Positions 52,187-54,481 of a stretch of DNA of 63,166 nucleotides are shown in pieces (positions within the stretch are counted from its first letter, which is position 1; each line of letters opens with the position of its first letter). The DNA lies in assembly GCA_944384505.1 (NCBI GenBank), contig CALWTQ010000013.1:1-63166 (forward strand). Direction: 5' to 3'. This DNA is from an uncultured Mediterraneibacter sp. (GTDB lineage: Bacteria > Bacillota > Clostridia > Lachnospirales > Lachnospiraceae). The position numbers were made by a program, and so were the translations under genes. A model generated the notes under the pieces. The model was not told the DNA's origin, did no database searches, and saw only the letters and a list, made by a program, of their open reading frames with translations.

Positions 52187-52853
52187 CTATTTCCATGAGA
52201 AATTTTCTTTGCCCGCTCCGATTTCAAAATGGTATTTTGCAATACCAAGATCTATTTTTGTATAAAACCCGAATCCGGCTTTGGCGGAAACGCCGTCTTT
52301 TCCCAGCGTGAACTGGAATTTCTGCTGATTCATCGCGGTCGGCGCAAGCAGAGCCGCCTCGGCGCCGGCGCGGAACCAGCCGGGAAAAGGTTCGTCTGCT
52401 TTTGCTATATCTTCCATTGATTTAGACTTATGGGAGGCCCCCCTGATTTTTTCCGTATCCCACGGAGATGACGATGCAGAGTTTCTCGCCTTCGCTGATG
52501 GTAAAAGCAGATTTTATTTTGCTGTAAGTCATGGCGACCCAGCATGTGTTTAAGCCGAGCTGCTGGGCTTTTAAGACAAGACGCTCTCCGTAGTAGCCGC
52601 ATTTTTCTTCCAGATCGGGTCCTTTTTTCCCGATCATGGCGATATAGCTGGAGACACCGCTGAACTTCCCGTAATGTGCCATAAAACTGTCAAATGCTTT
52701 TGGCTCGTTTGTTACGAGCTGGATGTGAAGGCCGCTCTCCTGATTGCAGGAATCAATCTCTGCAAGGAGTTCGGCTTTCGTATCTCTTTCAAGTGGTATG
52801 TCTTTGTACTGGCGCACGCTGTGGCGCGATTTCATTGCTTCTGTTAAATTCAT
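52187..52853 (-). pseudogene. Nitroreductase family protein, frameshifted at a C6/G6 tract
   Basis: The first 141 residues are a nitroreductase (MNLTEAMKSRHSVRQY, GYYGERLVLKAQQLGLNTCWVA). At the run of six C (52438-52443, G on the coding strand) the frame shifts and a stop follows at 52428. The remaining domain continues in the neighbouring frame (HKSKSMEDIAKADEPFPGWFRAGAEAALLAPTAMNQQKFQF) to 52187. One extra base in the G-tract explains it. This could be a true mutation, a phase-variable tract or a sequencing error. Confidence 0.75.
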
Positions 52854-53016: not shown

Positions 53017-53564
53017 CAGCTATTTAGCGCACTAACATTTCCTGTGACTCACGTCCGGAAGCGGAGCGGATGGTTTGCGATACGTATTCTGTGAAAGGGG
53101 ACAGCCGTGCGATGTTCCGTTCCAGAATCCGGAAAATCTAGCAGGCCGGAGAGATGTTTAAGGGCAAAGCGGCGCTCCGGGCAACTCGCTCCGCTCAGAC
53201 AATCCCTGCGCGCCGCTTAACAACATCTCTCCGCCCTTCAAGATTTTCAGCGGATTCCTCCAAAGTCACATCTCCCGGCTGTCCTCTTCCCCAGAAAGTA
53301 TACTCAAACCATCCGCTCCGTTTCCTGCGTATTTCCTGTCGGAAATGTCATTGCCTAAATAGGCTGAACCGCGAAGTTAGCGCGGCTTGAGGGCTTTTCG
53401 ACTATGAAAGTCTTCCGGCCGCGCCTGCTTCTCGCCGCAGCTTTTAATTTCCCTTATCCCCTGGAGCGAAGCCCTGAGCCGTCCTCCATCCCCGCAGAAT
53501 ACGTCTTGGCAAAGGTACTGTTTTCGGTCGTCTCTCATCCGGACGTTAGTGAACTTTATAGCTG
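53017..53564. mobile_element. 548-bp foldback element with terminal inverted repeats (copy 2 of 3)
   Basis: The ends CAGCTATTTAGCGCACTAAC (53017-53036) and GTTAGTGAACTTTATAGCTG (53545-53564) are imperfect inverted repeats. Inside, 53057-53325 folds into a 269-nt imperfect hairpin. GGAAGCGGAGCGGATGGTTTG pairs with 53305-53325 at 20 of 21 positions, and further arms pair down to AAGCGGCGC/GCGCCGCTT. The right part (53326-53543) has several small stems and is shared with both other copies. No credible protein is encoded. It fits a non-autonomous mobile element or a large structured RNA gene. Target-site duplication was not found. Confidence 0.7.
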
Positions 53565-54481
53565 TAGAGATCCTTCCGGTACTCTGTCGGACTTACTCCC
53601 ATCATCCGGCGGAACGTCTCTGCGTAATAGCTTCCGCTGCCAAAACCGCAGGACAGTGCGATTTCTGTAACAGGTGCATCTGTATTTCTCAGCATTTCCA
53701 TGCTTTTGCCCAGACGGTACCGGTTCAGATACTCGTTGGGAGACTGGGAAAAATATCTTGCAAACAGCTTGCAGCATTTGCTCTGTCCAACGGCCCCAGA
53801 GGCAGCAATTTCTGCAAGCGTTATTTTTTGTCTATAGTTTTTCTGGATAAAGCCCACCATATTTTTCACGATCAGAAGATCCTGGCCGGGACGGGCCGGT
53901 TTTTCAGTCTCGCCGGGCGCGTGTTCGGTTAAGAGGGACCAGACCAGAGCAAGGGAAGATAACGCCCGCATAGGGATTGTGGGCAGCTCCCTGTACTGAT
54001 ACAGCCGGTAAAGTTCGGATATGATTTCATTCTGCCATGTTACTTCGGGACAGAGTTTCAGGAAAGGCATCCTGCTGTTCTGAATCAGAGGAGTGACAAA
54101 GTCACTCTCAAACGGAAATACGGAGCAGAGCAGCATAGGGTGAAGAATGATGCACAGGAAATCGCAGTCCTGTGCAGGAGTGTGATGCGGCGCAGCCGAA
54201 TTCTCCGCATCCTGAGAATCATCGGAAAATCCAAAGTGCATCTGCCCGGAATTTACAAAAAGCCCGTCCCCGGTTTTTAGTTCCGTGATCTCGCCGTTTA
54301 CATTATATTTCATCTGACCGGACAGAACGCAGATGAATTCGACGTCATTATGCCAGTGATTGAGTGCGCGGAAGTCCGGATAAAGAGATAGAAGACCCCG
54401 GCGCATATAGACCGGATAGTCCGGATTGTTGTACCGGATGCGTTCTGATCGATCATCATTTAACATCATCGAAGACATCAT
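53546..54481 (-). CDS. AraC family transcriptional regulator
   Basis: This 311-residue protein has an N-terminal cupin (NHWHNDVEFICVLSGQMKYNVNGE), with the Asp/Glu and His residues of a sugar-binding pocket. The C-terminal AraC double helix-turn-helix has ITLAEIAASGAVGQSKCCKLFARYF and APVTEIALSCGFGSGSYYAETFRRMMG. The last codons (YSYKVH and the TAA stop) lie inside the terminal repeat of the foldback element, so the natural C-terminus may have been replaced. The gene is divergent from the PHP phosphatase gene. Confidence 0.88.
   Translation of the reverse strand: MMSSMMLNDDRSERIRYNNPDYPVYMRRGLLSLYPDFRALNHWHNDVEFICVLSGQMKYNVNGEITELKTGDGLFVNSGQMHFGFSDDSQDAENSAAPHHTPAQDCDFLCIILHPMLLCSVFPFESDFVTPLIQNSRMPFLKLCPEVTWQNEIISELYRLYQYRELPTIPMRALSSLALVWSLLTEHAPGETEKPARPGQDLLIVKNMVGFIQKNYRQKITLAEIAASGAVGQSKCCKLFARYFSQSPNEYLNRYRLGKSMEMLRNTDAPVTEIALSCGFGSGSYYAETFRRMMGVSPTEYRKDLYSYKVH

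Follow-up and report, generated by a model that had tools for sequence, protein, structure and literature searches.

A high-copy, gene-less foldback repeat of two opposed hairpin units in Mediterraneibacter, with ends close to stop codons

The long inverted repeats of eukaryotic foldback (FB) transposons are themselves structured, and the element described here resembles them in this respect, a likeness that does not imply relatedness. YPAL (RU-2) of Yersinia, which like our element is palindromic and intergenic, reportedly lies “closely downstream of stop codons”, in words attributed to De Gregorio in 2006. YPAL is described as an intergenic palindromic repeat that is co-expressed with upstream genes, measures approximately 168 bp, has no terminal inverted repeats, generates target duplications of 3–26 nt and has open reading frames listed (PMC2229807), whereas the element is approximately 760–960 bp long, has inverted ends and shows no surplus of target duplications at lengths of 5 nt and above. 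In the REPIN/BIME systems, REPs lie near genes and can supply a stop codon, and an inverted pair of palindromes forms one high-copy, gene-less, intergenic repeat, as is the case here (PMC3733652; PMC3116915). However, the units of the element are of approximately 340 nt and REPs of 20–40 nt, no GTAG/CGTC tag is seen at the element ends, which across families are of the CAGCTATTT or AATCTGKATTTG type, and there is no linked RAYT (TnpA-REP) gene, the Y1 genes not tracking the units.

Prokaryotic MITEs (RUP, NEMIS, QMITE) are usually shorter than 500 bp, with direct repeats and AT-rich targets (PMC10969869; PMC2229807). Like them, the element has terminal inverted repeats and a high copy number, codes for little or nothing and lies at AT-rich sites; it differs from them in its greater length, the lack of a target duplication and its conserved internal loops; unlike IS200/IS605, it has no tnpA as a part of it and no fixed short target. 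Ribosome termination structures (RTS) are stable structures directly after stop codons, where they have been proposed to act as a barrier (PMC7518266). The element likewise places a stable structure immediately behind a stop codon, but RTS are a general feature of mRNA and the element is a repeat family. It is best read as REPIN/MITE-like and a member of neither group, because the tag, the size and the RAYT link fail for REPIN and the target duplication fails for MITE. Within the open-access library searched, the titles and abstract openings listed show nothing on it, and its loop sequence occurs in none of the papers there. The explanation that we regard as probable, with the rivals weighed below, is a non-autonomous foldback DNA mobile element, high in copy number and without genes of its own, that is moved in trans.

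Architecture of the element and its copies in the host genome

The window, that is, the whole stretch of 63,166 nt that was analysed, belongs to a draft Mediterraneibacter genome (Lachnospiraceae; G000) of 3.95 Mb in 141 contigs, many of which end within copies of the element. A sample of 74 fragments (409 kb) of this genome holds 95 copies or pieces, and 30 of these run from end to end over about 757–765 bp, in the order hairpin A (approximately 350 nt), small hairpin B (approximately 65 nt) and inverted hairpin C (approximately 340 nt). The copy in the window (53017..53564, plus strand, 548 bp) is an internally deleted derivative of this element and corresponds to positions 1-422 plus 626-757 of a 757-bp copy (L022:1501-2257).

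The derivative begins with the left terminal inverted repeat CAGCTATTTAGCGCACTAAC (53017..53036, plus strand) and finishes with the right one, CAGCTATAAAGTTCACTAAC, read on the minus strand (53545..53564); the two are imperfect, being alike at 16 of 20 positions. Hairpin A (53017..53367, plus strand) is an end-to-end imperfect palindrome, CAGCTATTTAG...CTAAATAGGCTG, with covariation, and contains the 269-nt foldback stem that a sequence-only reading of this DNA had recognised at 53057-53325, with arms at 53057-53077 and 53305-53325 and further nested arms inside. Folded alone it reaches -172.4 kcal/mol, and the complete 548-nt strand reaches -240.5 kcal/mol, compared with -165.6 for shuffled versions, none of which, in a set of 100, went as low (z -11.6). 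Hairpin B (53370..53434, plus strand), around GCGCGGCTTG..CGGCCGCGCC at the centre of the element, has a fold of -36.6 kcal/mol. It is followed by the deletion junction GCAGCT (53437..53442, plus strand), where comparison with full copies shows the left arm of hairpin C to be absent, apparently lost between two GCAGCT hexamers; a similar junction is present in the copy of fragment C1:132500. What is left of C is an orphan right arm (53443..53564, minus strand), 53434-53564 matching positions 626-757 of the full element. This arm is the “right domain” of the earlier reading, because the window copy is without the left arm of C. The competing fold then proposed, in which this domain pairs with left-arm sequence, is possible (duplex -21.7 kcal/mol) and is what an orphan arm would find once its own partner is deleted, but in a full copy the segment pairs with the left arm of C (-28.5 kcal/mol).

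Pieces of further copies lie at both ends of the window, as had been noticed: the right part of a second copy, cut by the contig end (1..168, plus strand), and a piece of a third near the other contig end (63035..63156, minus strand). The “at least three places” of the same reading proved an understatement, since the left end has 206 matches in its own genome (103 per strand, at up to three mismatches; reversed-pattern control, 0), and the repeats are estimated to make up 3–4 % of it (206 ends, with 0.55–0.76 kb of element counted for each). The absence of an encoded protein also held: the longest ATG-started open reading frame in the window copy has 78 codons and none keeps a constant length among full copies, the longest one varying from 28 to 160 codons across the 30, so that no conserved protein is apparent. 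Identity among these 30 copies has a median of 0.842 over all pairs and of 0.913 to the nearest neighbour (maximum 0.983), and C modules are 98 % identical at four loci. The flanks are AT-rich with a weak symmetric bias. Outside some ends, at approximately 16 nt, a second CAGCTATTTAG-type terminal sequence is found (G000 C46:1, C78:6000, C7:1, C1:3161, C71:6492). To the left of the window copy there is a nitroreductase-type frame (52428-52853), which may be truncated, as it matches only 1-137 of the 215 positions of PF14512.

Conserved units, families and range

Hairpins A and C are homologous units of approximately 340 nt in inverted orientation. The reversed C-consensus aligns to A with a score of 41 vs 24 for shuffles (better than any of 100), and in direct orientation it scores no better than shuffles (16 vs 26); a profile of A also picks up the C hairpins of other species, with weak scores (26–28 bits) and on the opposite strand. 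A covariance model (R1), built from C-type units and their relatives in a second clade (family F2, see below) without any A, recovers the core of the window A (53110..53272, plus strand; 93.8 bits, E 3.2e-20) as well as both window-end pieces, and when 118,836 bases, comprising the window and another 15 loci, were searched with it at E up to 1, one other match appeared, a weak one (E 0.067) within the same element. The loops of the core in the window are CTAG, TTTAA..GCAAA, CAACTCGCTCCGCTCAGACAATC, TTAACA and AAAGTCAC. Near-invariant among copies are the unpaired blocks TTCCGTTCCA, AAAGTCAC and TTAACA, together with much of the apical AACTC..CAGACAATC in A.

The stems, on the other hand, change in a compensatory manner. 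Across 11 full elements from five genomes, 79 of 169 pairs show at least one double compensatory change; in 20 matches from 18 loci of other genera, 50 of 52 pairs do so, and the same-model alignment has 91.2 % of paired cells, vs 54.3 when shuffled and 36–50 when slid, figures that lean towards structure because the alignment was fitted to the model. Long palindromes can stay matched through template switching, and for this reason the covariation is not proof of RNA function. Departures of the G.T and A.C kinds are similar in number for the A units of the genome (22 v 28) and for the set drawn from the whole family (33 v 30), but unbalanced in C (79 v 29) and B (19 v 2); the imbalance could speak for RNA in these two, and neither strand as a whole is singled out as a functional RNA, the balance holding in A and the family set and not in C and B. 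As to known RNA families, Rfam 15 gave no match at gathering score in the window, and such a family was rejected as the identity of the element; by E-value, four matches appeared in 13 loci, all below gathering score. One was a T-box in a flank, and the others were three microRNA hairpin models on the palindromes, the best of them RF04119, which reached 58.5 of 137 bits on hairpin C. A “structured RNA gene that travels” may be compatible with the strongly conserved structure and its compensatory changes, but agrees less well with the opposed units and with the two element ends being about equally gene-adjacent.

Families of the same architecture, each specific to its lineage, occur in other species, and modules are exchanged between elements. 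G026 also has forms of the type C'-B'-hairpin-B-C, and in G029 a different left hairpin is joined to either C or A (by eye). A third hairpin module of the CAGTTGTTCCCGG...GGCGGTGTGTTGTC type was also seen by eye to replace A or C at one end in this genome (L064, L073, L082). The second clade (G062, G078, G030 and others) carries the family F2, with AATCTGNATTTGNGGG ends that match 102, 71 and 96 times, respectively, when one mismatch is allowed (control, 0). The consensus of 14 full F2 copies is 957 nt long and folds into a unit, a centre and an inverted unit, both unit types being matched in order in L293, and 14 further copies are single-unit forms of 345–361 nt. The building block is an imperfect hairpin unit of approximately 340 nt, in which the internal and apical loops are conserved and the stems vary freely, and the element consists of two such units in opposite orientation around a central hairpin.

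An exact core pattern is present at 12 or more loci of the genome collection, the named relatives being all Mediterraneibacter; the sequence they share identifies G026 as Candidatus M. vanvlietii, G029 as Ca. M. stercoripullorum and G005 as an uncultured Mediterraneibacter sp. R1 units were found in 47 of 58 genomes of the genus, with at least 50 scored matches each in G000 and G026, and the other 11 gave no match at the model threshold. In the family, 21 of 299 genomes have matches (the own one and 20 of 298 others, each of another genus), and with at most nine candidates scored per genome the counts in the others, from at least one to at least seven, are lower bounds. In the order, they occur in seven of 246 genomes: the own one, one of the same family and five of other families with weak scores (best 55.7 bits). 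Viral carriage is unsupported, as three pattern scans of viral contigs gave no match. Two side observations belong here. Most of one unit-bearing locus is letter-identical (33 of 50 60-mers) between L241 (G366) and L242 (G120), labelled as different genera, and we make no choice between transfer, contamination and a classification issue; in L229, L231 and L237, from other genera, the outer stems of single units have tandemly repeated arms that differ per genome (by eye).

This range bears on a reading in which the repeats are a matter of DNA architecture, that is, cruciform-forming sites for a host protein that were spread by recombination. Stems well paired on both strands, the G.T/A.C balance in A and in the family set and the intergenic placement agree with it; the 11 of 58 genus species without a match at threshold and a copy number that is very different between species do not, and we consider it very improbable.

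Evidence of mobility and the search for a partner enzyme

Filled and empty orthologous spacers both exist. The earlier reading had named copies with neither compensatory changes nor empty sites as its refutation, and here both are present. At the 3' end of the araC gene, the window species and G026 each have a copy, the two being alike in orientation and approximately 7 nt apart (by eye), and no unit was found there in G080 and G066. In the uvrC-ftsH spacer, G000 has a 403-bp derivative of the A-B-C family and 6 of 29 other loci have F2-like hairpins (two of them weak and truncated) in both orientations; the other 23 of the 29 gave no match, 12 of all 30 loci not being bridged to ftsH. G000 and G062 have four filled spacers in common, each genome with its own family there (L302/L042, L333/L020, L343/L023, L355/L041), where a rough estimate expects about one; this could point to hot spots, or to copies that are anciently resident and evolve in concert. 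When 145 gene ends beside copies were compared between G026 and G000, four G026 loci had the same gene by a copy; for araC and a 478-aa gene the 3' end was the shared one, and in the other two loci the copy lay at the opposite end of the gene. Most G026 sites examined are not common to the window species.

The relatives are too distant (about 70–85 % DNA identity) for the exact insertion point to be reconstructed to base level, and comparison among these distant species showed neither excision nor new insertion. Current activity is unproven because most full copies have no near-identical partner. Amplified deletion variants were dropped as a proof of mobility, since the recurrent deletions lie at micro-homologies beside hairpins, where each could have an independent origin.

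“MITE-like element” was the better half of the two earlier readings and is partly supported: copy number, conserved ends, lineage families, filled and empty spacers and the C modules of 98 % identity speak for it, the missing target-site duplication and the unusual length against it; a search for partners among Y1 genes and among frames beside copies brought up no parent IS, though one may exist. That the element is simply the MITE of some DDE insertion sequence, with its duplications decayed, seems to us improbable. Imperfect terminal inverted repeats, AT-rich flanks, high copy number and the lack of a conserved reading frame are what such a MITE would show, but 0 of 30 copies in G000 and 0 of 49 F2 copies have a target-site duplication of 5 nt or more although their ends are well kept, the length (approximately 760–960 bp) is unfavourable, and internal loops are kept between species, which a MITE does not need. 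Exact 4-mer duplications occur in 1 of 30 and 2 of 49 copies (expected, 0.17 and 0.33), and there is no fixed target motif at the element ends.

The favoured foldback element would most likely spread as DNA, by a putative enzyme supplied in trans that may recognise the folded units and/or the CAGCTATTT-type ends. Among 943 open reading frames of the loci compared, no family recurs across genera beside copies; the largest clusters are frames inside the element and, by eye, ABC-transporter-like genes. The genome-wide search for transposases covered the Y1 family: Y1 transposases are present in 41 of 47 genomes with units vs 8 of 11 without (Fisher p 0.35). A Y1/RAYT transposase is thus unsupported as the partner, since its presence does not track the units and the RAYT-like Y1 gene of the host (G000:C50:19666-19992, L195) has no unit within 1.5 kb. 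This locus encodes a protein of 255 aa and has small inverted repeats of its own of the GGGACGTAGTAAAATC type (by eye), and similar open frames of 250–310 aa occur in many genomes of the genus. Three of the five Y1 matches in G000 lie in or beside copies. These are IS200-like tnpA genes, at L193 (G000:C15, about 49.2–50.2 kb), L194 (C73) and L196 (C54); in the C15 copy the IS sits between hairpins A and B. The idea that such copies are the autonomous form was rejected, as the one that was read through simply shows an IS interrupting the element.

Position relative to stop codons

In the window, the TAA at the inner end of the right terminal repeat (53546-53548) is the stop codon of an AraC-type regulator gene (53546..54481, minus strand; Pfam PF12833, PF00165), the last codons of which lie inside the right end of the element. 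This arrangement recurs. In the counts that follow, genes are our own ORF picks and not annotation, and copies within 400 nt of a fragment end, uncallable flanking frames and frames more than 600 nt away are left out. In G000, 28 of 45 3' gene ends beside copies have their stop within -18..+10 of the element end (1 being adjacent), whereas the 59 5' gene ends begin at 28 with a median of 115, a distance count that includes a few short pieces and both halves of the IS-interrupted copy. Of the copies between tandem genes with both ends, 18 of 25 have stops within 10 nt, while uniform placement in the same 25 spacers gives a mean of 2.4 and at most 10 in 20,000 simulations. The G026 genome shows the same (14 of 21 3' ends within -11..+14), and the abutment is weaker where the ends are less sharply delimited: in a set of G081 and six F2 loci, -14..+14 takes in 10 of 27 3' ends, and in other genera -38..+13 takes in 15 of 32.

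The second family abuts stops more tightly still. The F2 set comprises 49 copies with both ends matching the pattern at up to one mismatch, 36 from G062 and the rest from sister species, some being one site in two species, and its stops are those of frames of at least 80 open codons. Of the 98 ends, 36 lie at -1 and 16 at 0 nt from a stop, 65 at -2..+3 and 63 at -1..+3, vs 4 of 490 control positions in the last interval; G062 alone gives 47 of 72 at -2..+3. On both sides, 36 of the 49 copies have a frame end within -36..+50 nt and 21 have stops within -2..+3, which means that convergent genes are separated by hardly more than the element. Genes without an intact F2 end after them, at 60 % identity or more, stop at the same codon in 16 of 20 comparisons by our own count, or in 19 of 29 without an identity limit, so that filled sites have kept a native stop codon. 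Behind the stop, five of these 16 genes have an element of the window family, two have degenerate F2-like ends and nine have no clear element end. At filled F2 sites the spacer is largely gone.

Insertion would accordingly seem to take place between genes, with the ends against stop codons and, by eye, near a promoter on the 5' side, where promoter-like sequences were seen and left uncounted; after settling, there would often be little or nothing of the original spacer. Three mechanisms remain for the abutment: insertion may be guided, deletions next to the ends may proceed until they reach a base that cannot be lost, or a barrier behind the stop codon may be selected for.

The second of these, erosion, supposes that copies land between genes without a target and that deletions starting at their ends eat into the flanks until selection halts them at a stop codon or a promoter. 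It is compatible with the foldback-element explanation, and we take it to be a serious possibility, if somewhat short of an even chance. It would explain jointly why duplications are missing, why many convergent pairs have almost no spacer left, why promoter-like sequences lie close to the far end and why several orthologues without an element have ordinary-looking sequence behind the same stop; end-adjacent deletions are known from IS elements. However, older copies should then have shorter residual spacers, and the divergence of 35 ends in the window species correlates with the spacer at rho +0.23 (p 0.18); the lack of a negative correlation speaks, as weak evidence, against erosion.

Selection in place is the core of another rival, a host-maintained structured 3'-end element, the RNA hairpins of which end transcription or insulate translation, their spread being old and secondary. 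The abutment in two families, the strong covariation with conserved loops and the presence in 20 other genomes of the family (at least one to at least seven matches each) argue for it. Set against them are the opposed units, the nearly equal use of the two ends next to genes (16 left and 14 right among 30 ends within 12 nt), the G.T/A.C balance in A and the family set, though not in C or B, and more than 200 left ends in one species when 11 of 58 have no match, and we find it doubtful. A possible replacement of native terminators was examined with a terminator score on the flanks, outside the element; it was positive at 2 of 30 filled ends vs 4 of 64 controls, the latter from crude gene calls, and did not tell the two groups apart.

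As regards guided insertion, it is conceivable, and in our judgement unlikely, that the repeats are a Lachnospiraceae-wide hairpin replicator with constant loops and free stems, which would be steered to stop codons on insertion, perhaps via translating ribosomes or mRNA ends, and would replace whole spacers, leaving convergent genes with the element alone between them. A resident copy of the foldback element probably forms a two-sided structured barrier behind stop codons, and the element may be retained because the host benefits from it. The repeats define an unlisted, family-wide structured element, and in one clade its ends meet stop codons with single-nucleotide precision, a placement that simple models of transposition do not predict. 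If insertion is truly guided to stop codons, it would represent a novel form of targeting and a “safe harbour” rule found in nature.
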